A stretch of DNA of 64,000 nt from Oscillospiraceae bacterium (lineage in GTDB: Bacteria; Bacillota; Clostridia; Saccharofermentanales; Saccharofermentanaceae). Location of the stretch: contig CACWXL010000005.1 in assembly GCA_902764825.1 (NCBI GenBank), positions 1-64,000 on the forward strand, in the 5' to 3' direction. Within the stretch, counting starts at the first letter, position 1. The number at the start of each line of letters is the position of its first letter. The translations under genes and the position numbers were made by a program. Shown one piece after another: positions 10,052 through 27,315 of this stretch. The notes beneath the pieces were generated by a model. It worked only from the letters and a program-made list of their open reading frames with translations. It was not told the origin of the DNA and made no database searches.

Positions 10052-12811
10052 ATGTCATTCTTGACTGCACTTTATACATTGATCATCTCTCCTCTTGAGC
10101 TTCTTTTTGAAGTCGTATTCACGATAGCCAACAGGATCATCGGTAATCCCGGCCTGTCGATAATATTCCTAAGCCTCGCTTTTAACTTCCTGGTGCTCCC
10201 TTTGTATAAGCGCGCCGACGAGCTTCAGGCAGAAGAACGTGACATCCAGGCTAAGATGGCCCCCAGGCTCAAGCGCATTAAGAGCACCTTCAAAGGTGAC
10301 GAGCGCTTCTTCATGATCCAGGAATATTACCGCATCAATCACTATAAGCCCATCTACCAGCTGAAGAGCTCTGTATCTCTGCTCTTGCAGATCCCGTTCT
10401 TCATTGCAGCATACAGACTCCTTTCCAGGATGCAGTGCCTTCAGGGCATGCAGTTCGGCTTTATCGCCGACTTGGGCAAGGAAGATGCCACCTTCATGAT
10501 AGGGAGCTTTCCTGTTAATATCCTTCCGATCCTGATGACGCTCATCAATATCGTATCAGGCATCATCTACACTAAAGGACACCCTCTTAAGTCGAAGATA
10601 CAGGTTTACGGTCTTGCACTTGTATTCCTCGTACTGCTCTACCATTCACCTTCAGGCCTCGTATTCTACTGGCTCTTAAACAATGTATTCTCGCTTGTAA
10701 AGAACATCTTCTATAAGCTTAAAGACCCCAAAAAGGCCGTATATATCCTTTTCGCGGTCGCAGGAATAGGCATAACCGTAATGGCCTTCGTAAAGCCGGG
10801 TCTGGACTTAAGACAGAAGATCCTTTTGTGGATTGGTTCACTCTTGCTCATAATGCCTTTGGCATTCAGCTTCATTAAGAAAAAGCAGATAACTAAAGTC
10901 TACGAGAAAAAGCACGGAGCATTCTTTGCAGGTGCCGTTCTGATGGCTCTTCTTACGGGATTTTTGATCCCCGGCTCGGTCATCAGCGCTTCGGCAGAAG
11001 AATTCATCGATGTTATCAATCCGTCGACTCCGTTCCTATATGTGGTTAATTCGATGCTGCTCTCATTCGGCAGTTTTGTCCTCTGGGGCGGGGTTTTCTA
11101 CTTCTTCATGAGTGACAGGATGCGCACATTGTTCAGCAGAGCGGTCTGGGTCATCTGCGGTGTCTCCGTCATCAACTTCATGCTGTTCGGCACAAAGCTC
11201 GGCACGCTCTCTGCCACACTGCAGTTTAAGACCGCGCCTGCCTTCAAGCTTAAGGATTACCTGATAAATGCCCTGGTGGTGATCGCCGCAGCGGCAGTGC
11301 TTTATTTCATAATCGCTAAATTCAGGAAGATAGTAATGCCGGTTCTCCTTGTCGGCATCCTTGCCGTAATCGGTGTCGGTTCTTATAACACTGTCATGAT
11401 CAACCGTTCTTTTGCCGAATTCGAGAGCAAGTCCAGAGCTTCGGACATGCCTGTCATCCCTTTGAGCAAAACAGGACAGAACGTTGTAGTACTTATGCTC
11501 GACCGTGCCGTCGGTGACCTTGTCCCTTACCTCATGGATGAGAAACCTTCACTTAAAGAACAGTTCAACGATTTTACATACTATCCGAACACGATCTCAT
11601 ACGGCACACATACCCTCTATGCGGCGCCGGCACTTTTCGGCGGCTACGAATATACTCCCGAGAGGATAAACGAGAGACCGGACGAGCTCCTCAGAGACAA
11701 GCACGATGAGGCGCTTAAGGTAATGCCTGTCCTGTTCGGAGAAAACGGATATGATGTAACGATAATAGATCCGCCGCTTTCCGGATATGTATGGACATCC
11801 GACCTCTCGATCTACGATGATCATCCGGAATTCAACACCTATCTGACCAGCGGCAAGTTCGATATCATCGACAACGGAGTCAATATCACCGCCGATGCGG
11901 CATCACTGGTAAGCAGATCGCGCAACCGCAACTTCTTCTTATATTCTCTGATGAAGACCTCTCCTGTTATCCTGCAGGAGACCCTCTATGATGGCGGTGT
12001 TTATAACGAATCCAGGAGCGCTGCCAAGAGGATCGACGGTTCCGCTGAGACCGATGCCCTTGTACAGCACACATACGGACTCTCAAAAAGTGTCGGATAC
12101 GACCTGGAATTCTTAAAGTCTTATGCCGTACTTGATAATCTTACGAAGATAACGGAGATCAACGATGATCCCAAACCTTCCTTCGTACTGATGGCAAACG
12201 AGACCACGCATTCCCCCTGCTTCCTCCAGAAGCCGGACTATAAGATTGCATATAACGTCGACAACACCATTTACGACAAGGGACTGTCTGAAGGCATCAG
12301 ACTTAACAACAGGACCCTCAATATGTATTCAAACGACCAGGTGACCCATTACCACATCAATATGGCGGCCTTCATGAAGCTTGGCGAATGGTTTGATTAT
12401 CTGCGTGCAAACGGTGTCTGGGACAACACCCGTATAATCCTCGTATCTGACCACTCAACACCCGTAGGCTACTACGACATTATGTGTGTCGGCAAGGAAA
12501 TGGGCGGCTACCTCCCCCTCCTTATGGTCAAGGATTTCAATGCGTCAGGCTATTCTGTCTGCGATGATTTCATGACCAATGCAGATACTCCGGTCATCGC
12601 GACTTCAGGCATCATCAAAGGACCTGTTAATCCCTACACCGGCAAGCCGATCGATTCGAGCCTCAAGACCGGAGCCGAGAAAGTCATTTTGTCCGGCGAA
12701 TACAGTCTTTACAAGAACCTGGACAGAACGACATTCAAGATGGGTTCATGGTATGTCGTTGAAGGAGATCCGCATAAGTCCAACAGCTGGAAATATGTGG
12801 GAGAGAAGTGA
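10052..12811 (+). CDS. YidC-like membrane domain fused to an extracellular alkaline-phosphatase-superfamily domain (copy 1)
   Basis: The 919-residue protein begins with a YidC/Oxa1-type insertase domain (residues about 1-225: IGNPGLSIIFLSLAFNFLVLP, PLYKRADE, LLLQIPFFIAAYRLLS, and the final FYWLLNNVFSL). Six or more further spans fill residues 230-460. From about 480 it becomes an extracellular alkaline-phosphatase/sulfatase-type fold: metal-ligand D484 in VVVLMLDR, Thr521 in SYGTHT as candidate nucleophile, ANETTHS, and VSDH (D800, H801) as metal ligands. LtaS- and MdoB-type phosphotransferases share this layout. It probably transfers a phosphate-containing group to a surface polymer; the YidC part may be structural. 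The next gene, which has its own promoter, encodes a CDP-glycerol transferase-like protein. Confidence 0.8.
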   Translation: MSFLTALYTLIISPLELLFEVVFTIANRIIGNPGLSIIFLSLAFNFLVLPLYKRADELQAEERDIQAKMAPRLKRIKSTFKGDERFFMIQEYYRINHYKPIYQLKSSVSLLLQIPFFIAAYRLLSRMQCLQGMQFGFIADLGKEDATFMIGSFPVNILPILMTLINIVSGIIYTKGHPLKSKIQVYGLALVFLVLLYHSPSGLVFYWLLNNVFSLVKNIFYKLKDPKKAVYILFAVAGIGITVMAFVKPGLDLRQKILLWIGSLLLIMPLAFSFIKKKQITKVYEKKHGAFFAGAVLMALLTGFLIPGSVISASAEEFIDVINPSTPFLYVVNSMLLSFGSFVLWGGVFYFFMSDRMRTLFSRAVWVICGVSVINFMLFGTKLGTLSATLQFKTAPAFKLKDYLINALVVIAAAAVLYFIIAKFRKIVMPVLLVGILAVIGVGSYNTVMINRSFAEFESKSRASDMPVIPLSKTGQNVVVLMLDRAVGDLVPYLMDEKPSLKEQFNDFTYYPNTISYGTHTLYAAPALFGGYEYTPERINERPDELLRDKHDEALKVMPVLFGENGYDVTIIDPPLSGYVWTSDLSIYDDHPEFNTYLTSGKFDIIDNGVNITADAASLVSRSRNRNFFLYSLMKTSPVILQETLYDGGVYNESRSAAKRIDGSAETDALVQHTYGLSKSVGYDLEFLKSYAVLDNLTKITEINDDPKPSFVLMANETTHSPCFLQKPDYKIAYNVDNTIYDKGLSEGIRLNNRTLNMYSNDQVTHYHINMAAFMKLGEWFDYLRANGVWDNTRIILVSDHSTPVGYYDIMCVGKEMGGYLPLLMVKDFNASGYSVCDDFMTNADTPVIATSGIIKGPVNPYTGKPIDSSLKTGAEKVILSGEYSLYKNLDRTTFKMGSWYVVEGDPHKSNSWKYVGEK
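10088..10831 (+). repeat. Near-identical duplicated tract, copy 1
   Basis: This 744-base segment matches 14257-15000 in the second paralogue with about 25 mismatches by eye, mostly at third codon positions. The 36 bases before it, encoding nearly the same residues, differ at many silent sites, and identity falls away abruptly after the shared TTTTGTGG. The tract covers the YidC domain. Sharp edges inside the reading frames suggest gene conversion rather than simple duplication. Confidence 0.85.
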
Positions 12812-14220: not shown

Positions 14221-16986
14221 ATGTCTTTTTTAACTGTACTTTACACGTTAATACTCTCTCCTCTTGAGCTTCTTTTTGAAGTCGTATTCACGATAGCCAA
14301 CAGGATCATCGGTAATCCCGGTCTGTCGATAATATTCCTAAGCCTCGCTTTTAACTTCCTGGTGCTCCCTTTGTATAAGCGCGCCGACGAGCTTCAGGCA
14401 GAAGAACGAGACATACAGGCTAAGATGGCTCCGAGGCTCAAGCGCATCAAGAGCACCTTCAAAGGTGACGAGCGCTTCTTCATGATCCAGGAATACTACC
14501 GCATCAATCACTATAAACCCATCTACCAGCTGAAGAGCTCTGTATCTCTGCTCTTGCAGATTCCGTTCTTCATTGCAGCATACAGGCTCCTTTCCAGGAT
14601 GCAGTGTCTTCAGGGCATGCAGTTCGGCTTTATCGCTGACTTGGGCAAGGAAGATGCCACCTTCATGATAGGAAGCTTTCCTGTTAATATCCTTCCGATC
14701 CTGATGACGCTCATCAATATCGTATCAGGCATCATCTACACCAAGGGACATCCTCTTAAGTCAAAGATACAGGTATACGGTCTTGCACTTGTATTCCTCG
14801 TACTGCTCTACCATTCACCTTCAGGCCTCGTTTTCTACTGGCTCTTAAACAATGTATTCTCGCTTGTAAAGAACATCTTCTATAAGCTTAAAGACCCGAG
14901 AAAGGCCGTATATATCCTTTTCGCGGTCGCAGGAATAGGCATAACCGTAATGACCTTCGTAAAGGAAGGTCTGGACTTAAGACAGAAGATCCTTTTGTGG
15001 GCCGGCGCGCTCTTGCTCATAATGCCGCTCGTATCTCTTAAGATCAGATTTAAGAAGATTTCTGATGTCGCTTCTGCAGGAAAGAACGATTACGGGCTGT
15101 TCTTTTCGGGCGCCGTCCTTATGGCCCTGATATCAGGTGTCCTCATTCCTTCGGCAGTAATAAACGATTCGCCGCAGGAATTCATCGATGTGGTAAATCC
15201 CTACAACCCGTTCCTCTATATAGTTAACTCGGGCGTCCTGGCCCTCGGAAGTTTTGTCCTCTGGGGAAGCATCTTCTATTTCTTTATGAGCGGCAAGGCT
15301 AAATCCGTATTTTCCAAGGCAATGTGGATCTGCTGCGGAATATCCGTCATCGACTATATGTTATTCGGCACAAAGCTCGGAACCATGAATTCGGCACTTC
15401 AATACGATAAGGCGCCGGCGTTCAGGGTGTCTGACTATGTGCTTAATATCTTGGCAGTTCTGGCCGTAACCGTATTATTCGCATTTGTCGTAATCAGGTT
15501 CAGAAAGATAGCCAAGACCGTTATTATCATCGGAATATTGACCGTCATCGTGATCGGTGCATTTAATTCAGCTGCGATAATAAGCAACTACAAAGAGTAT
15601 TCAGACCGCACGGAAGCTTCTGAGATGCCTGTGATACCATTGAGCAGAAACGGAAAGAATGTCATCGTGCTGATGTTAGACCGGTCCGAAGGCCTTCAGA
15701 TCCCTTATATCTTCAACGAGAAGCCGGAATTAAAGGATCAGTTTGACGGCTTTACCTACTATCCGAATACAAATTCATACGGTCAGTCCACGATCGTTGG
15801 TTCGCCGGCTTTATACGGCGGATATGAATATACTCCGCAAAAGCTCAACGAGAGACCGGATGAGGCGCTTAAAGATAAGCATAATGAGGCGCTGAAGGTA
15901 ATGCCTGTCCTCTTCAGCAGAAACGGATATAACGTTACGGTAATAGATCCTTCTTATGCCAACTATCAGGAAATCCCGGATCTTTCCATCTATGACGGTT
16001 ATCCCAACATCAACCGCTACCTTGCACAGGGAAAATACAGCATCTTCTCTGACAATGAAAATTATGCGGGTTCTGAGCGTCTTAAGAGCACGCTTAACCG
16101 TAATCTCTTTTGCTTCTCGCTGATGAAATCAGCTCCGGTCATCCTTCAGGAGACCCTCTATAACGGCGGCCTCTATAACGGCTCCGACCTCAGTTCTGAC
16201 AGTCAGGCAGGAGCGGTAACCGCTTCATCCCTTATCCAGTACGTTTCCGGCATCTCAAGAAGCAAGGGCTACCTTAAGTCATTCATCGAATGCTATGCCG
16301 TTCTCTTGAACCTGGATGAGATGACCTCCATATCTGACGGCAGCGAAAACAACTTCCTCATGATGGCCAACGATACGACCCACTCTGCCTGCCTTCTCCA
16401 GCAGCCGGATTATGTTCCGCAGTACAATGTCGACAACACCGCTTACGATGTCGACATGGAGTCAAGATATACGGTAAACGGCGTAACGATGAACATGAGC
16501 GAACAGTATCCTGTCATCCACTATCACGCTAATATTGCCACCTTCATACAGCTCGGCAAATGGTTCGATTATCTGCGCGAACAGGGCGTCTGGGACAATA
16601 CAAGGATAATCCTCGTATCCGACCACGCAAGAGGCCTCGGTCAGTTTAACATCACCTGTGAAGGCCAGGATATGGAATTCTATTTCCCCCTGCTGATGGT
16701 CAAGGACTTTAACAGCAAAGGATTTAACGTCAGTCAGGAATCCATGACCAATGCCGATACTCCCGTCATAGCGACAAACGGCCTCATAAAGGATCCGACC
16801 AATCCCTTTACCGGAAACCCCATAAATTCCGACCCCAAATTCGGCATCAGATATATCTACTATACGGATTTCATCAGTGCCGCAGACAACTCGGGCAATA
16901 CTTTCGAGCACGGCAAATGGTACAGATTAGACGGCGATCCGCACGATCCGGCAAGCTGGAAATACGTCGGTGAGAAGCTCCCGTAA
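14221..16986 (+). CDS. YidC-like membrane domain fused to an extracellular alkaline-phosphatase-superfamily domain (copy 2)
   Basis: A 921-residue paralogue of the gene at 10052. The YidC domain is almost identical at the DNA level, while the middle membrane part and extracellular domain have diverged. The phosphatase-fold residues are kept: D487 in VIVLMLDR, Thr524 in SYGQST (aligned with Thr521 of copy 1), ANDTTHS, and VSDH with D801 and H802. The start is three bases after the glycerophosphotransferase stop, without a strong ribosome site, so translation is probably coupled. Divergent extracellular parts on a conserved membrane part suggest the two copies act on different acceptors or donors. 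Whether the YidC part still inserts proteins is unknown. Confidence 0.8.
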   Translation: MSFLTVLYTLILSPLELLFEVVFTIANRIIGNPGLSIIFLSLAFNFLVLPLYKRADELQAEERDIQAKMAPRLKRIKSTFKGDERFFMIQEYYRINHYKPIYQLKSSVSLLLQIPFFIAAYRLLSRMQCLQGMQFGFIADLGKEDATFMIGSFPVNILPILMTLINIVSGIIYTKGHPLKSKIQVYGLALVFLVLLYHSPSGLVFYWLLNNVFSLVKNIFYKLKDPRKAVYILFAVAGIGITVMTFVKEGLDLRQKILLWAGALLLIMPLVSLKIRFKKISDVASAGKNDYGLFFSGAVLMALISGVLIPSAVINDSPQEFIDVVNPYNPFLYIVNSGVLALGSFVLWGSIFYFFMSGKAKSVFSKAMWICCGISVIDYMLFGTKLGTMNSALQYDKAPAFRVSDYVLNILAVLAVTVLFAFVVIRFRKIAKTVIIIGILTVIVIGAFNSAAIISNYKEYSDRTEASEMPVIPLSRNGKNVIVLMLDRSEGLQIPYIFNEKPELKDQFDGFTYYPNTNSYGQSTIVGSPALYGGYEYTPQKLNERPDEALKDKHNEALKVMPVLFSRNGYNVTVIDPSYANYQEIPDLSIYDGYPNINRYLAQGKYSIFSDNENYAGSERLKSTLNRNLFCFSLMKSAPVILQETLYNGGLYNGSDLSSDSQAGAVTASSLIQYVSGISRSKGYLKSFIECYAVLLNLDEMTSISDGSENNFLMMANDTTHSACLLQQPDYVPQYNVDNTAYDVDMESRYTVNGVTMNMSEQYPVIHYHANIATFIQLGKWFDYLREQGVWDNTRIILVSDHARGLGQFNITCEGQDMEFYFPLLMVKDFNSKGFNVSQESMTNADTPVIATNGLIKDPTNPFTGNPINSDPKFGIRYIYYTDFISAADNSGNTFEHGKWYRLDGDPHDPASWKYVGEKLP
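14257..15000 (+). repeat. Near-identical duplicated tract, copy 2
   Basis: This is the partner of 10088-10831 and covers the YidC-like domain of the second paralogue. The most non-conservative change is a three-base Pro to Glu substitution near the 3' edge (CCG to GAA). The offset is constant at 4169 bases, with no insertion or deletion seen. Confidence 0.85.
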
Positions 16987-21033: not shown

Positions 21034-21843
21034 TTATTCCTTTACAGCTTTGCTCTCGAAAGCAAGTATCCATGAGATTGGAACCGCCTTAGAGGCAAAG
21101 TGCAGTAATTTCTGTGAGAACGGATATGACATCATCCGCTTTCCCCTAACGGAAGCCTTAAGCGTGGCTTTTGCAAGCTTAACAGGGTCGATAACAAAAT
21201 TCTTACGCCAATCTGTAAAATTAGTTTCCTTGCCTTCGGTTGCCCTTCTCTGGAAATCCGTCGCAACGGGACCGGGGCAGACTACAAGGACATCTATTCC
21301 CTTAGGCTTAAGCTCGCAGCTCATGGCTCTGGAAAATGATATTACGTAAGACTTGCTTGCAGCATAGCAGGCAAATCCGGGCTGCGGCAGGAAGCCTGCC
21401 GACGAACCGATATTGATTATCTTTGAATGAGTTTTGTCTTCGGTCTTCATGTAAGGCGTCGTGATCCTTATCATCTCACTTAACGCCGTGCAGTTAATGG
21501 AGATCGTATCTCCTAAAGCCTTCGTGGGCTTGTCGGCCATAAGGCCCTTTATGCCCATTCCGGCAGAATTGATGAGAAGCCCTACTTTAGGCTCTTCTGC
21601 CTTAAGTTTATCTTCAACAGTCCTGATTCCTGAATCGGTCGAGAGATCTGCAGTGACCGGAACTATCCTGACGCCTTTTATGGAAGATGCCAGTTCATTA
21701 AGTGCATCCTCACGCCTTGCTATAGCCCATATCTCATCAAAAGGAGTCTTGAAGTATTCTTTGCTGTCACCTGCAAGAAGCCCGATAAAAGCCTTTCCTA
21801 TGCCTGATGAAGCTCCGGTTACGATTGCGATCTTCTGGTACAT
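21034..21843 (-). CDS. Short-chain dehydrogenase/reductase
   Basis: A 269-residue classical SDR. It shows the NAD(P)-binding TGASSGIGK at about residues 9-17, the NSAGMG motif (usually NNAG), a catalytic Ser in IINIGSSAG and YAASK with Tyr and Lys. The start chosen is ATG 21843, with GGGGAG upstream; the longer frame adds residues without a ribosome site. The protein is cytosolic and reduces or oxidises a hydroxyl or keto group of an unknown substrate. The C-terminal tail (LLHFASKAVPISWILAFE) is hydrophobic and may associate with the membrane, as in some lipid-related SDRs. It lies between the radical SAM gene (56-base gap) and the SCP2 gene. Confidence 0.85.
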   Translation of the reverse strand: MYQKIAIVTGASSGIGKAFIGLLAGDSKEYFKTPFDEIWAIARREDALNELASSIKGVRIVPVTADLSTDSGIRTVEDKLKAEEPKVGLLINSAGMGIKGLMADKPTKALGDTISINCTALSEMIRITTPYMKTEDKTHSKIINIGSSAGFLPQPGFACYAASKSYVISFSRAMSCELKPKGIDVLVVCPGPVATDFQRRATEGKETNFTDWRKNFVIDPVKLAKATLKASVRGKRMMSYPFSQKLLHFASKAVPISWILAFESKAVKE

Positions 21844-21899
21844 ATAGTTCTCCCCACGAGAAGTTCCGTACCTTAAATAATACACTCTGTAAAAAAATA

Positions 21900-22973
21900 T
21901 TAAAAGAGAATGTCCTTAAAGCAGACTCTCTGCTTATTTTTATCGTAATCAAAGCAGTGCCTGGAGCCACCCGCGCACCACTTCTCCCATTCGCACTTCT
22001 GACAATCTTCGCAAAGCGAGGACAAAGGCTTTCTGAATTCCTGAAAGCGGTTAAACCAGACGTCACTGAACTTGTCCTTATAGATATTTCCCTGAACAAA
22101 TTCGGGTCTTTCCTCAATATCAAGGCACGCAGTGATATCTCCGTTTACCCTTATTGCTGCCGTGTGTGTGCCTGCGCCGCAATAGAAGAACCAGTCCCTT
22201 ACTTCTCTCTCATATTCCAGTCCGAGGAAATGAGAACATCCGTAATTTACGGGTATTCCCTGTTCTCTCTTGTCGCGTATGAAATTAAAGATATATCTCT
22301 GGTCATCAGGTGTAAGCAGCATGTCCGGATAATCGAGAGCCCTTCCCATCGGCTCAATGCCTATTACTCTCCATGAATCGAGATCCATCTTATCCAGGAT
22401 ATCGAAAAGCTCATCTAATTCGCCGATATTCCGGTGATTAACGACAGTCGTTACCTGAATGTGCTTGAAAGCCTTACGGTCAATGAGGTTCTGTATTCCC
22501 TGCATCGCCCTGTCGTAACCGCCTGCAATCCCTCTTTGTCTGTCATGCGTATCACGAAGTCCGTCGATACTGACAGATACCGTTCCCATTTTTGTTCTTG
22601 CGAGCATATCGGCAACATCTTTTGTGATAAGCGTTGCATTTGTCGTCATGCCCCAGTGGAACCCATTATCTACGGCATAGCCCAAAAGCTCTTCGAAATC
22701 AGGATACAAAAGAGGCTCTCCGCCCGTAATGCAAAGCTGCACTCTCTTAAGATCGAAATGCTCCTTAACATCATCCAGAACGGCCTTAAAAGCTTCCTTG
22801 TCAGGTCCGTGTCCTAATCCGGGCTCGCACGAACTGCCGCAATGAAAACACTTCGAATTGCAGCTTCTGGTTAATTCAAAAAACAGGTAGATCAGATCAG
22901 GCTTCTCGAAAAGTCTGGCTCTCTGTTCGGCTTTCCGGTCAAGATAAGCCTTCTTTGCTTCGATTATATCCAC
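21900..22973 (-). CDS. Radical SAM/SPASM enzyme, probable peptide maturase for the VYGPP protein
   Basis: The 357-residue enzyme has the radical SAM [4Fe-4S] motif at Cys38, Cys42, Cys45 (RSCNSKCFHC), the SAM-binding ITGGEPLLYP, and a C-terminal SPASM cysteine set (YCGAG, ITACLDI, then CEDCQKCEWEKWCAGG) for auxiliary clusters. SPASM enzymes often form thioether, carbon-carbon or other bonds in ribosomal peptides, or activate sulfatases. Here the GTG start lies only five bases after the stop of a short gene with four VYGPP motifs, with a weak ribosome site, so the two are translationally coupled. That pairing makes the VYGPP protein the obvious substrate, resembling the radical SAM/lipoprotein pairs described in Bacteroidetes (recalled, not searched). 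The SDR follows 56 bases later. Confidence 0.85.
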   Translation of the reverse strand: MDIIEAKKAYLDRKAEQRARLFEKPDLIYLFFELTRSCNSKCFHCGSSCEPGLGHGPDKEAFKAVLDDVKEHFDLKRVQLCITGGEPLLYPDFEELLGYAVDNGFHWGMTTNATLITKDVADMLARTKMGTVSVSIDGLRDTHDRQRGIAGGYDRAMQGIQNLIDRKAFKHIQVTTVVNHRNIGELDELFDILDKMDLDSWRVIGIEPMGRALDYPDMLLTPDDQRYIFNFIRDKREQGIPVNYGCSHFLGLEYEREVRDWFFYCGAGTHTAAIRVNGDITACLDIEERPEFVQGNIYKDKFSDVWFNRFQEFRKPLSSLCEDCQKCEWEKWCAGGSRHCFDYDKNKQRVCFKDILF

Positions 22974-22978
22974 GGATA

Positions 22979-23290
22979 TCAGTTCTCAAAATCTTCCGGC
23001 GGACCGTAAACATCTACTTCAGGGCCATCAAGAGTCTCATCCGGCGGAGGTCCGTAGACGCCTACTTCGTTGTTATTATCTCCGTCACGCTTTGAAAAAG
23101 GCACTGTCTCATCAGTCTCTTTGCTTGTCTCTTCAGTCTCATATGAAGTGAGTTCCGGCGGCGGAGGACCGTAAACATTAGTCTCCGGCGGACTCGGAGG
23201 TCCATAGACACATGCTTCAACTGCCAAGCTCAACGCACCGATCCCGGCAGCTATCGCAGCAAAGGTTAGAGGTTTTTTCGCTCTCTTCAT
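22979..23290 (-). CDS. Secreted/lipoprotein-like protein with four VYGPP motifs, candidate RiPP precursor
   Basis: This 103-residue protein starts with a basic, then hydrophobic N-terminus (MKRAKKPLTFAAIAAGIGAL) ending VEAC at Cys27, a poor lipobox. Four copies of Val-Tyr-Gly-Pro-Pro follow, at residues 28-32, 39-43, 78-82 and 94-98, each followed by Pro or acidic residues. Between copies two and three lies an acidic, Thr-rich spacer. There is no known catalytic domain. It has a GGGGGA ribosome site, follows the large surface protein by 23 bases and precedes the radical SAM gene by five. The repeated short core next to a SPASM enzyme suggests repeated post-translational modification, perhaps on Tyr, before export and anchoring; the modification itself is inferred. 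Confidence 0.7.
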   Translation of the reverse strand: MKRAKKPLTFAAIAAGIGALSLAVEACVYGPPSPPETNVYGPPPPELTSYETEETSKETDETVPFSKRDGDNNNEVGVYGPPPDETLDGPEVDVYGPPEDFEN

Positions 23291-23313: not shown

Positions 23314-26300
23314 TCAGCTGATATCCTGTTTATCTTCGTCGGACTGTCCCTCGGAAGCGTTCTCTCCGTTAAGTCCCTTGAATCCTGCCACCGGGGCTGA
23401 TGCCGTAGGAGCAGCCTTAGCATTAGGATCCATGATAGAAGGTCTCTGTCCTTCCAATGCCGCGCCCATAGCAGGGGCAGTCGCTCTCTTGTTTGCTTCA
23501 TTCTCCTGATCAACGATCGCGGAAGGTCTTACGATGCCGCCGTATGCGGAAACGTGACCGTCCTGCTCGGAAGAAGAATCGCGTCCTGTCTGTGCTCTCT
23601 TGAAGAATGCGGACTTATGAGACTTGGCAGAATCGGCAATGCTCGTATAAGCAGCCCTTGCCTTTTCTTCTTCAGCCTTCTTTGCCTCGATCTCTTCAAG
23701 ACGCTTCTTTTCTTCGAGTTCTCTTGCAGCCTTTGCCTCTTCGCTCTCCTTGAAAGCGGAAACATTAGCCATTGCAGGTGCTGCCCAAACGGGTGCTCTT
23801 CCTGAATTGTTGTAAGTCTTTCCTGCAAGTATGCTTCCCAACTGGTTGGAGTTGGAGGATGCCTTTGCACGATCCTTAGAGATCGAAGGACCCGAAATAT
23901 CAGTGGATGCGGAAGCTCCGACACCGGAAGAGGAACCGCTCTTGAATGACATCAGAGGATTGCTCTTGATCTCACTTACCTTTGAGCTTTCCTTTGACTC
24001 GGATACCTTCTCCTTCTTGCTGTCGAGCATCTTGTCATATCCTTCGGCAGAAGCGAGAGCGGAAATGCCCGGTGCTACTGTATTCTCTGAAGTTGCCAAA
24101 GTATTTCTGAAGAATGCGGATGTCTTAGCCTGAGCCTTTGCGCGCTCGGCACGTGCTTCTCTTGCAGCCTCTGCAGCCTGCTTAGCCTTCTGTGCTTCAG
24201 CGAGCTTGGCTTCAGCGGCTGCCTTTGCCTCTGCTGCCGCCTTCTCGGCTTCTGCTGCCGCAGCTCTTGCACGCTCTGCAGCCAGTGCTTCTTCCTGCTT
24301 AGCGAGTTCTGCTGCCTTGGCAGCTTCCTCTGCCTTTCTCTTCTCTTCAGCCAGTCTGGCCGCTTCTGCTCTCTCAGCTTCTTCGGCACGTCTGGCTTCC
24401 TCAGCCTTCCTTGCCTCTTCGGCCTTCCTGAGTGCTTCTTCTCTTCTGGCTTCTTCAGCCTTTCTAAGCTGTTCGGCTATTCTGGCTTCCTCGGCTCTTC
24501 TTTCTTCCTGAGCCTTCTTTGCAGCTTCGATCCTCTCGCGCTCAGCGGTCCTTAAAGACTCCTGGATCTTTCTTGCTTCCTCTGCCTTGGCTTCGGCTTC
24601 AGCCTTTGCGATAGCAGCAAGTCTTATTGCCTCTTCAGCCTTTTTCTGCTCTTCTAATCTAGCACGCTCAGCTGCCTCAGCTGCTTCCTTTGCCTTTCTT
24701 GCATCCTCAGCCTTTCTCGCTTCTTCTGCGAGTCTTGCCTCTTCTGCCTTCCTGGCAATCTCTGCTTTCCTTGCTTCTTCAGCCTGTCTGGCTTCTTCAG
24801 CAGCCTTCTTCTCAGCCTCGAGCCTCTTGGCTTCAGCGTTCTTTCTTATCTCTTCGACTCTTGCAGCCTGAGCGGCTCTTCTCTCCTCAAGGAGCTTAGC
24901 TGCCTTCTCACGCTCAGCGATCTGCTCGGGTGTAAGTTCATTCTTGGGACGTCTGATAGGTTCAGACTTCTTCTCTTCCTTAACGGCAGCTGCTGCGGCT
25001 GCAGTTCCGGCCAGAGCGGCAGGAGTTACAGCAGGTGTAACTGCACTCTTGAAAGGTGAGCCTGATGCAGAAGGATCGGCTGACGGCAATGTTCCCGGTA
25101 CCTTGGAGGGCTTGAAAATATCCTTCCTTGCCGAATTCTGCATGCTGCGGTTAACTCTCGGAAGTCCTCCGACGATATTTGTCTGGGAACCGACAGTGCC
25201 CTGTGCTGCAGTCTCAGCTGCCTTCTCTGCAGGCTTTGCAGCTGAAGTATTCGCAGGCTTGAACAGGTTGCCGAATGCGGGCTGCCTGTTTGTTGTATCA
25301 GCAGGCTTGAACGCATTCTTTGCCGCATGATCCTGAACATTCTTCGGTACAGTCTGTGTGCTTGAAGCATGTGCAGGCTTGAAAGCATTAATCGCGGAAT
25401 TCTGTGTTGCCGCAGGTCTTGCTGCCGCATCACTTGCAGGCTTGAATGCGCTGTTGACCGGAGTCTTGGCAGGAGATGCTGCATCGGGCTTAGCTGCCGC
25501 ATTGCTTGCAGGCTTAAACGCACTGTTGATGGGCTTTCCGGCAGAAGGCTTGGATTCAAGCCTGTTATCCGTTCTCATTGCATTCTTCATTGCGTTGTTC
25601 TGCGCAACGGAATTTACATTGGTCTCGATTCCTGAAGCGTTAGTAGGCCTGAAAGGAGAAGCTGTCTTGGAATTCGTTGTTCTTGCAGCTGCGGTTGTTG
25701 CTGCAACGCCGCCTAAAGCAGCCTTTGTCTGACCTGCGGATGCGGGTCTGAATGCATTGCTCTTCAAGGCCGAATTATCTGTAGTTTTAGAAGCGGATCT
25801 GAAAGCGACCTGATTCTTGCTGTCTGTCGTAGCCTTAGGAGATTCAACTGAACGGTCAGAAGGAAGCTTCATGGGACCCTTCTTCTCAACCGGCTTGGGA
25901 GCAGTACCGGGTGCAGGCTTGAAAGGACTGATCTCGCCTGATTCCATAGCCTTGATCTCCTTCATTGCCGTTGCAGCGTTAAATGTTCGGCTGGTACTGG
26001 AAGCAGGAGCTTCCTCCGGCTTAACTTTCTTAACAGGTCCGAGATATCCGAATTTATCAGCGATAAACGGAACGCCCGGAATAAATGCGATCGCAAGATC
26101 CACACCTTCCAGTTCCTTCTTATCCTTAAGATACTTGTATCTTGCAAATCCGGCACCTGCAAGCAGTACAAGGAGGATCCACCAGAACCATGTGGGATTC
26201 ACAGGACCTTTCTTCTTACCGGTTGCAGCAAGAGCAGCGATTACAGGTGTAGGTGTCGGAGTAGGAGTAGGCGTGCCGTCTCCTGTCTCAGTATTGCCGC

Positions 26301-26604
26301 CTCCACCATTGGTTGTTGTAGTAACGGAGGCTTCTGTTGTATCGGATGCAGACGTATCTACGATTCCGCCAACAATACCACCTGCAGCACCATCGACAAT
26401 GTTCGGATCCAATGTGCTTGTAGCTGTAGGATCAAGTATCGTCTCTGTCGGCTTAGGTGCCTCAGTCTCAACGGGTGCACTTGTATTTGTCGGCTTTGGA
26501 GCCTTTGTATTTGTAGGCTTGGGAGCCTTAGTATTCGTGGGTTTAGGTGCCTCAGTATTCGTATTTGTCGGCACAGGTGTATTTGTTGCCTTCTTGGTAG
26601 GCAC
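23314..26604 (-). CDS. Large surface/coiled-coil protein, 3' part of a frameshifted gene
   Basis: This is the downstream part of one gene that begins at 27284; it has no convincing start of its own (a GTG inside a repeat). It encodes the end of a Thr-Pro linker (KATNTPVP, APKPTNTK units), one membrane span (PTWFWWILLVLLAGAGF) followed by Lys/Arg residues, a segment with repeated NAFKPA/SAFKPA-type motifs, a long Ala-Glu-Arg coiled coil (about 24080-24960) and a disordered tail. The charge after the span places this part in the cytoplasm and the linker outside. Removing one of two CCTTCTTT copies at 26715-26730 restores a single frame of about 1320 residues. It resembles no protein I know by function; a link between an extracellular binding domain and the cytoskeleton or division site is possible. 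Confidence 0.65.
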   Translation of the reverse strand: MPTKKATNTPVPTNTNTEAPKPTNTKAPKPTNTKAPKPTNTSAPVETEAPKPTETILDPTATSTLDPNIVDGAAGGIVGGIVDTSASDTTEASVTTTTNGGGGNTETGDGTPTPTPTPTPVIAALAATGKKKGPVNPTWFWWILLVLLAGAGFARYKYLKDKKELEGVDLAIAFIPGVPFIADKFGYLGPVKKVKPEEAPASSTSRTFNAATAMKEIKAMESGEISPFKPAPGTAPKPVEKKGPMKLPSDRSVESPKATTDSKNQVAFRSASKTTDNSALKSNAFRPASAGQTKAALGGVAATTAAARTTNSKTASPFRPTNASGIETNVNSVAQNNAMKNAMRTDNRLESKPSAGKPINSAFKPASNAAAKPDAASPAKTPVNSAFKPASDAAARPAATQNSAINAFKPAHASSTQTVPKNVQDHAAKNAFKPADTTNRQPAFGNLFKPANTSAAKPAEKAAETAAQGTVGSQTNIVGGLPRVNRSMQNSARKDIFKPSKVPGTLPSADPSASGSPFKSAVTPAVTPAALAGTAAAAAAVKEEKKSEPIRRPKNELTPEQIAEREKAAKLLEERRAAQAARVEEIRKNAEAKRLEAEKKAAEEARQAEEARKAEIARKAEEARLAEEARKAEDARKAKEAAEAAERARLEEQKKAEEAIRLAAIAKAEAEAKAEEARKIQESLRTAERERIEAAKKAQEERRAEEARIAEQLRKAEEARREEALRKAEEARKAEEARRAEEAERAEAARLAEEKRKAEEAAKAAELAKQEEALAAERARAAAAEAEKAAAEAKAAAEAKLAEAQKAKQAAEAAREARAERAKAQAKTSAFFRNTLATSENTVAPGISALASAEGYDKMLDSKKEKVSESKESSKVSEIKSNPLMSFKSGSSSGVGASASTDISGPSISKDRAKASSNSNQLGSILAGKTYNNSGRAPVWAAPAMANVSAFKESEEAKAARELEEKKRLEEIEAKKAEEEKARAAYTSIADSAKSHKSAFFKRAQTGRDSSSEQDGHVSAYGGIVRPSAIVDQENEANKRATAPAMGAALEGQRPSIMDPNAKAAPTASAPVAGFKGLNGENASEGQSDEDKQDIS

Positions 26605-27284
26605 AGGAGTATTCGTAGCCTTCTTTGTAGGGACAGGTGTATTAGTAGCCTTCTTTGTCGGCCTCGGTGTAGGCGTATTTGTAGCCTTTTTTGTAGGGAC
26701 AGGTGTATTAGTAGCCTTCTTTCCTTCTTTGTCGGCCTCGGTGTAGGAGTGTTTGTAGCCTTCTTTGTCGGCCTCGGCGTAGGAGTGTTTGTAGCCTTCT
26801 TTGTAGGCGTAGGCGTAGGTGTGTTTGTATTGGTTGGCTTAGGGGGATCTGTAGGCTTAGGCGTAGGAGTTACATGAATATCCTTACTGACAACCTTAAC
26901 CTTCAGCGGATCGGGAAGATCTGTACCATTGACTGAAATGTAATAATTTCCATTAGGTTTTCCACCCCAACCATTAAATTGAACCTTACATTTCTGTTCG
27001 CCATCAGATATTATTTTTACGGGACCTGAACAGGACAGATTTGCCGAACAATTAAACTCGAAAATGATGGTTACATAACCTTTACCAAAATCTTCAATAA
27101 CAACATTAAATCCGCCTTCATCTCCCCAGGATTTTGCGTTTTTTACTTCTACCGTTCCGGCAGTACCAGCGGCCTGAACATCCTGAACATCAAAAAACTG
27201 CAACGCAAAAGACATGCCGATAAGCACGCAAAGAAGCATACATATCGACTTAAGCGAGAAGCGACCCGAATAGCTGCCCGTCAT
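26358..27284 (-). CDS. Large surface protein, 5' part: signal peptide, beta domain, Thr-Pro linker (frameshifted)
   Basis: The start is ATG 27284 with GGAGG nine bases upstream. Residues 1-40 are a signal peptide (MLLCVLIGMSFALQFF; cleavage near VQAAG). Residues about 43-135 form a beta-rich domain (GFNVVIEDFGKGYVTIIFEF...SVNGTDLPDPLKVKVV), reminiscent of a carbohydrate-binding module and of the first domain of the nearby cellulase. A TPTPTPTK/ATNTPTPRP linker follows. After the 8-base duplication at 26715-26730 this frame becomes out-of-phase, Arg- and Leu-rich nonsense (from KKERRLLIH) and runs to 26358. In the restored frame it continues into the membrane span and coiled coil of 23314-26604. 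Whether the break is real, phase-variable or a sequence error cannot be told here. Confidence 0.65.
   Translation of the reverse strand: MTGSYSGRFSLKSICMLLCVLIGMSFALQFFDVQDVQAAGTAGTVEVKNAKSWGDEGGFNVVIEDFGKGYVTIIFEFNCSANLSCSGPVKIISDGEQKCKVQFNGWGGKPNGNYYISVNGTDLPDPLKVKVVSKDIHVTPTPKPTDPPKPTNTNTPTPTPTKKATNTPTPRPTKKATNTPTPRPTKKERRLLIHLSLQKRLQIRLHRGRQRRLLIHLSLQRRLRILLCLPRRQQIHLCRQIRILRHLNPRILRLPSLQIQRLQSRQIQVHPLRLRHLSRQRRYLILQLQAHWIRTLSMVLQVVLLAES
26440..26870 (-). repeat. Thr-Pro linker repeats (10-12 codon units)
   Basis: Tandem coding repeats of the form TKKATNTPxP and APKPTNTK occur with small DNA differences. Such Thr-Pro linkers separate binding domains from the wall or membrane in clostridial surface enzymes. 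The repeats favour slipped-strand changes, and one is seen at 26715-26730. Confidence 0.75.
26715..26730. repeat. 8-bp tandem duplication causing a frameshift
   Basis: CCTTCTTT occurs twice in tandem (26715-26722, 26723-26730), whereas the other repeat units read GTAGCCTTCTTTGTCGG with a single copy. The extra 8 bases shift the frame. Deleting them gives exactly 1321 codons from ATG 27284 to the stop at 23314. Confidence 0.85.
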
Positions 27285-27315
27285 CAATATTTACCTCCAA
27301 AAGCACACACCTCTC

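Follow-up and report, generated by a model that had tools for sequence, protein, structure and literature searches.

Clostridial radical SAM/lipoprotein-type pairs with multiplied V-Y-G-P sites

Within a 64,000-nucleotide stretch of an Oscillospiraceae bacterium genome (the window; source assembly ~3.0 Mb), a small protein with four VYGPP motifs and the radical SAM/SPASM enzyme encoded beside it belong to the radical SAM/lipoprotein systems as a branch from Clostridia in which the sites are multiplied (Table 1). Judged from comparative sequence data, the two are very probably a substrate and its maturase, and chemical alteration of the protein at each motif, ahead of its arrival at the cell surface, is very likely. 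A sequence-only reading of the same DNA, made without database searches, had put them forward as a candidate modified-peptide system, and comparative pairing supports that assignment. The Clostridia branch keeps only the repeated V-Y-G-P and thereby isolates the likely modification site, while the sister relation of its enzymes to the peptide spliceases gives a predicted mass shift.

Table 1. Positions in the window of the paired genes, their motifs and the neighbouring genes
Feature	Position	Strand	Remarks
VYGPP-repeat protein (putative precursor/substrate)	22979..23290	-	103 aa; acidic Thr/Glu/Asp-rich spacers
Conserved N-terminal signal region MKRAKKPLTFAAIAAGIGALSLAVEAC	23210..23290	-	candidate lipid-accepting Cys27 at its end
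VYGPP site 1, residues 28-32	23195..23209	-	immediately after Cys27
VYGPP site 2, residues 39-43	23162..23176	-	
VYGPP site 3, residues 78-82	23045..23059	-	local context GVYGPP
VYGPP site 4, residues 94-98	22997..23011	-	
TIGR04133-like radical SAM/SPASM enzyme (putative maturase)	21900..22973	-	357 aa, without RRE domain, GTG start
CX3CX2C motif C38, C42, C45, SAM-binding 4Fe-4S cluster	22839..22862	-	invariant in alignments
SPASM region C265...C283...C324xxC327x5C333...H339...C351	21921..22181	-	CX3C cysteine replaced, His339 invariant
Large membrane-spanning surface protein	23314..27287	-	upstream in same operon, 23 bases ahead of substrate gene
Short-chain dehydrogenase (SDR)	21034..21885	-	directly downstream of enzyme, conserved in genus

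The sequence-only reading had described four exact VYGPP copies in a 103-residue protein, and each of their coordinates was confirmed. The open reading frame has an ATG start preceded by an AGGGGG-like ribosome site. Its product runs from a basic start through a hydrophobic stretch to a cysteine and the first VYGPP, and continues as a Thr/Glu/Asp/Pro-rich, acidic chain that is expected to be unfolded. A scan against the NCBIfam models returned 0 families at E<=1, so the protein has no TIGR04134 match, and the same profile scan gave no family match to a Nif11/NHLP leader.

In an alignment of 11 orthologues the N-terminal 27 residues are mostly invariant or nearly so, an unusual degree of conservation for a signal sequence, and this region possibly doubles as the leader read by the enzyme. 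The signal-like N-terminus claimed earlier was borne out, while the lipid anchor claimed with it is likely only. The candidate lipobox is non-canonical, with a Glu at -2 (AVEAC/AVEGC) that is conserved in the genus, and for this reason lipidation is uncertain in the source genus; the partners found in relatives have canonical lipoboxes (e.g., FAAAGC in locus L028). From these sequences the VYGPP protein is likely to be lipid-anchored, and its product should lie outside the membrane, held by lipid or by the signal sequence. The CVYGPP at residues 27-32 places a YGxP near the candidate lipid-attachment Cys, as in TIGR04134 partners.

The motif itself is strictly conserved. The 26 orthologues contain 116 VYGP sites, a mean of 4.5 per protein and between 2 and 6 in each (VYGPA counted), and V, Y, G and the first P are identical in 116/116. 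The position that follows is P in 106 sites and A in 10, and is mostly succeeded by P and an acidic residue. Nearly all tyrosines of these proteins (116/124) fall within the motif. V-Y-G-P is encoded by 26 different synonymous codings among the 116 sites, which rules out recent duplication alone, and the spacers between sites differ in length and sequence among orthologues. A DNA pattern for VYGP[PA] occurs 6 times in the whole genome, 4 of them in the substrate gene. The VYGPP repeats are not a product of chance. Thioether formation via Cys was considered and rejected: a Cys precedes V in 46 of the 116 sites, but D and N together are about equally common there.

Enzyme and motif protein occur together throughout the genus. 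A scan of genome contigs yielded 25 loci with an enzyme at 83-97% identity, and a VYGPP-repeat ORF lies immediately upstream in 25/25. Six genomes of the same genus that have the enzyme show clusters of 2-5 motif matches beside it; four that lack it show 0, 0, 1 and 2 scattered matches, at or below the control level. At the level of the class, an enzyme profile found a close relative in 16 of 391 genomes, and a substrate profile matched 8 genomes of the class sample, 7 of which have the enzyme. The eighth (G706) was discounted, its weak 18.6-bit match lying within a frame of 565 aa. The source genome has its relatives among Saccharofermentans/Ruminococcaceae, and a good many of these genomes were assembled from rumen and gut metagenomes.

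More distant homologues extend the pairing to dissimilar partners. An [X]YGxP protein stands beside the enzyme homologue in every complete neighbourhood read, bar L071, where PAYGID keeps XYG and the proline is absent; the co-occurrence check proposed in the sequence-only reading thus came out in favour of the pair, with this one proline-less exception. Locus L028 belongs to another family and its enzyme is 54% identical; the partner there is a lipoprotein (MKINPKKAMMIGLASSVLFAAAGC...) with VYGPPE and VYGPPED that is dissimilar to the window protein outside the VYGPP motif. DVYGPP is found in the L062 partner, CVYGPP and DVYGPP in that of L063, and two such proteins in L064; in L065, cut by a contig end, DVYGPP and AVYGPP are visible. 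The partners in L066-L068 carry CAYGPP or CGYGPP, with a later VYGPP in two of the three. L069 has ALYGVP in a partner downstream of the enzyme, L070 has PMYGSPE, and the L072 partner, CGMYGPPPRSYYTMNGRV, matches TIGR04134 beside an enzyme of 385.8 bits, below the TIGR04133 cut-off. Partner motifs in the Clostridia relatives thus comprise VYGPP, AYGPP, GYGPP, LYGVP, MYGSP and MYGPP, and from these sequences it is the motif, and not fold or homology, that the enzyme family follows. Read by eye, the other neighbours in L028 resemble an HU-type DNA-binding protein and a diguanylate cyclase, and L063 has a MATE-like transporter; since the neighbours differ outside the genus, the role of the pair is not tied to cellulose. 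Near the enzyme relative in L070 (1-703) lie two short membrane proteins, one with MYGSPE and the other with EYAPPKSP, which suggests, at the level of sequence, that this branch tolerates Ala in place of Gly.

The neighbouring gene, which the sequence-only reading had called a SPASM radical SAM enzyme, is one: it follows the substrate gene after a gap of 5 bases, and its product matches Pfam Radical_SAM (6.6e-21) and SPASM (2.7e-9). Its best NCBIfam model is TIGR04133 (rSAM_w_lipo; 266.1 bits, E 3.9e-79), and as this is below the 425-bit cut-off, the enzyme is not a member by NCBI's rule. Likewise below their cut-offs are the second-best family, MftC (TIGR03962; 141 bits, cut-off 265), TIGR04103 (103.7 bits, cut-off 725) and the WgkB cyclophane maturase model NF050035 (96.3 bits, 1.8e-27, cut-off 650). 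An AlphaFold model of the enzyme (pLDDT 89) shows a single N-terminal helix followed by the barrel, and no RRE fold was seen in it. The nearest solved folds to this model are SuiB, anSMEcpe and SkfB; a PDB sequence search found no close relative. Scanning the neighbouring ORFs with family models revealed no PlpY/RRE-type gene.

In the alignment, the SPASM CX3C cysteine is absent from every row of the TIGR04133 clade, while a His two positions after it is invariant. Most TIGR04133 rows read CxGG[SA]xH, versus GGCxxx in most of the sister group and MftC. On this sequence evidence, one auxiliary cluster of the clade is probably bound differently, and a different reaction could follow. The invariant His, present in the window (21921-22181) and in loci L028 and L062-L075, is in itself a possible unusual auxiliary-cluster ligand.

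The link to the radical SAM/lipoprotein families of Bacteroidetes, suggested earlier as a comparison, proved right: the best family is TIGR04133, whose partners bear EYGSP, EYGTP and CYGMP (in full CEYGSP, CEYGTP and CYGMP among TIGR04134 partners of Bacteroidota and Treponema). Bacteroidota TIGR04133 members score 608 and 617 bits, and the window enzyme falls into one clade with members above the cut-off (19 rows, support 100/99 and 99/99). On Parabacteroides and Treponema records the pairs are annotated, with a TIGR04134 'radical SAM-associated putative lipoprotein' gene touching the enzyme gene, and an unannotated Phocaeicola record holds the same pair. The partners from Treponema, Bacteroidota and L072 match the TIGR04134 model; a TIGR04134 search gave no match in the source genome and likewise none in 14 control genomes, and is uninformative. 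A first phylum-wide TIGR04133 search had returned mostly other SPASM enzymes and only two true pairs. The window pair resembles the TIGR04133/TIGR04134 pairs in the full-length similarity of its enzyme, in clade, in the closeness of the enzyme gene to a secreted-protein gene and in a YGxP near a Cys. It differs in that its enzyme scores below the cut-off and in that its partner has neither a TIGR04134 match nor a recognised folded domain, and four V-Y-G-P sites instead of one. Literature searched by name, with Scott et al. 2022 (Chem) outside its coverage, contained no TIGR04133 biochemistry and no TIGR04133/TIGR04134 reaction, and a survey of Bacteroidales RiPPs makes no mention of the lipoprotein pairs (PMC10352776).

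The phylogeny gives the enzyme a shared ancestry with the splicease group. In a midpoint-rooted tree, TIGR04133 is sister to a group made up of TIGR04103, TIGR03913, two NHLP-linked enzymes of this phylum and two further relatives; support is 98/98 with all rows and 99/99 without four long or odd branches. MftC, PqqE, NirJ and other SPASM enzymes fall outside both, and a constrained tree joining TIGR04133 with MftC was rejected (p-AU 0.025). PlpX and the cyclophane enzymes are not among the rows, and PlpX enters through its family: IPR026482 is taken here to be TIGR04103 (nif11-class maturase 3). PlpX is assigned to IPR026482 (PMC11002830). It cuts tyramine out of X-Tyr-Gly, after which the two ends are joined through an alpha-ketoamide (PMC11002830, PMC10533398). 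One precursor can be spliced at several sites (PMC10373908), and the reaction does not depend on a RiPP leader (PMC10533398). In the splicease sites Tyr-Gly is constant and X variable (PMC11002830, PMC10533398, PMC10373908), and published splice tags include LYGLPI.

The sister-group substrates that were read have X-Tyr sites, in most cases X-Tyr-Gly. A Nostoc TIGR04103 enzyme (853 bits) has the core ALYGLPPELF, whose LYGLPPE is strikingly similar to VYGPPPE in the window; an Agathobacter substrate has VMYGTG, and NHLP cores beside sister-group enzymes read TAYGIARP and LAYGVPIHG. The window pair and the PlpX-type systems share, besides the sister clades, an X-Tyr-Gly site and the possibility of multiple sites per precursor; unlike them, the window pair has a signal peptide, no Nif11/NHLP leader or PlpY/RRE partner, and one SPASM Cys replaced. 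The TIGR03913 'GDL motif' trio (DUF1843 peptides) belongs to the same sister group, and its peptides contain LYGGA, PYGVA and PYGAG as well as MYMAT, LYAAG and MYAAS, that is, LYG, PYG and MYA sites; unlike the window protein, these small peptides have no signal sequence. Some sister enzymes thus stand beside XYA/XYM peptides, and different reactions may occur within the clade. Another multi-site XYAxP candidate is a protein with ~10 KYAAP/MYAPP/EYMAP-like repeats in L029 (931-3426); the radical SAM enzyme beside it is TIGR03913/TIGR04103-like and ends in a C-terminal repeat region.

The sequence-only reading had not settled the chemistry; tree and substrates favour the splicease group over a generic cross-linker. 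By analogy, the chemistry that appears most likely, though it is proposed tentatively, is excision of tyramine from each V-Y-G to leave an alpha-keto-beta-amino (ketoamide) residue. Each Val-Tyr-Gly would be processed by the TIGR04133-like enzyme while still in the cytoplasm, either ahead of Sec export or in its course, and a 5'-deoxyadenosyl radical would attack Tyr, as in PlpX. Each site would lose C8H9NO (-135.08 Da; published value -135.0757), giving -540.3 Da for four sites, and the chain would be rejoined with Val converted to an alpha-keto-beta-amino acid joined to Gly-Pro-Pro. The product would be a disordered, acidic, membrane-anchored protein displaying several electrophilic ketoamides outside the cell. 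Spliceotide-type ketoamide peptides inhibit proteases (PMC10373908, PMC11117315), and in the simplest role the ketoamides could trap serine/cysteine proteases by reversible covalent binding, close to the operon's surface protein and the cellulase, and so shield the surface apparatus. Splicing, surface display and protease trapping taken as a whole make up the best explanation, held at just under the level at which it would be called probable; the protease-trapping role on its own is unlikely. Several observations stand against splicing: the pair has no PlpY/RRE neighbour, and PlpX works with PlpY; there is no Nif11/NHLP leader; the SPASM CX3C cysteine is lost; and PlpX is the sole sister-group enzyme cited as characterised.

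A first competing reading is a cross-linking maturase. Short repeated motifs are cross-linked at their aromatic residues by many SPASM enzymes, and within V-Y-G-P-P the enzyme could tie Tyr, through its ring or C-beta, to a nearby residue, for example as a small cyclophane or ether; each site would change by -2 Da, and the surface protein would gain a rigid ring. The WgkB match, although far below its cut-off, and the presence of SuiB, a Lys-Trp cross-linker, among the closest folds are in line with such a reaction, as is the proline three residues after Tyr, which is almost always kept. Yet the residue before Tyr (V, A, G, M, L, E, C) and the one two after it (P, S, T, M, V) vary, so that this proline is the only constant cross-link partner, and the reading is rather improbable, though with a tree that did not cover cyclophane enzymes this is no exclusion on phylogenetic grounds. 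The same variation of X beside a constant Tyr-Gly is what one would expect if X were retained and Tyr largely lost. Somewhat less credit still is given to a different change at Tyr or in the backbone, of the type associated with TIGR04133/TIGR04103/MftC, in which tyramine is not lost: oxidation, desaturation or formation of a Val-Tyr bond. MftC is a SPASM enzyme that acts on a Val-Tyr pair and links the two residues (PMC8326336), it is the second-best family, the CGVY at the end of its substrate resembles GVYGPP at site 3, and the auxiliary-cluster ligands of TIGR04133 differ from those of both groups. However, MftC decarboxylates a C-terminal Tyr and has an MftB chaperone, whereas Tyr is internal at all window sites, and the tree test separates the two clades. 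Splicing is ranked above both of these readings because of the sister-group tree and the variable X with constant Tyr-Gly.

Two further alternatives concern the number of sites and the pairing itself. In Bacteroidota partners a single YGxP next to the lipid Cys is followed by a folded domain, and in the window genus CVYGPP directly follows the Cys, so that modification could be confined to the first site, with the further repeats acting as binding or structural elements. V-Y-G-P is nevertheless exact at all sites regardless of position, and the sites of L028 and L062 lie away from the Cys, which makes this a quite remote reading. That a secreted proline-rich protein merely happens to adjoin an unrelated radical SAM gene is scarcely credible: VYGPP-like strings could arise in proline-rich surface proteins, but YGxP is found in only ~2% of the 60-200 aa open frames of the same loci, partners included, and the pairing is conserved across families, phyla and dissimilar partners. 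The comparative data refute the chance-neighbour reading.

With tyramine excision again taken as the preferred chemistry, a broader proposal can be made, possible but on the doubtful side: a stand-alone, multi-site splicease of the TIGR04133 clade that works without a RiPP leader or RRE partner and installs a ketoamide array on the surface, with the same occurring in Bacteroidota TIGR04134 lipoproteins. TIGR04133/TIGR04134 pairs are present in gut Bacteroidota. Were splicing true, ketoamides, which are protease-inhibiting warheads, would be a normal feature of gut and rumen bacterial surface proteins, and a small enzyme that works alone would be at hand as a tool to introduce such residues. 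In Tropicibacter oceani (L085, 1689-4497), a sister-group radical SAM gene lies directly before a gene with a trypsin-like peptidase domain, a neighbour of interest if such systems make protease inhibitors.

The large surface protein that had been placed in the same operon is indeed there, and the genus retains the order surface protein, VYGPP protein, radical SAM enzyme and SDR. The VYGPP gene is preceded by a gap of 16-50 bases and followed by short gaps or overlap. The VYGPP gene is probably co-transcribed with the surface-protein gene in the genus. A PT-rich linker and a transmembrane segment are present in the surface protein, and further upstream on the same strand of the window there is a gene for a GH5 cellulase. 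We know of no participation of the short-chain dehydrogenase in the system. In the window the surface-protein gene is split by a frameshift in a PT-rich repeat into overlapping frames (26358-27287 and 23314-26604), and the protein is a single open frame in most relatives; the frameshift may be an assembly error, decay or slippage-based switching. Elsewhere on the plus strand, 10052-12811 and 14221-16986 encode two closely similar proteins of 919/921 aa that, read by eye, seem to combine a membrane portion of YidC/Oxa1 type with a sulfatase-like domain, and between them lies a CDP-glycerol-glycerophosphotransferase-like gene.
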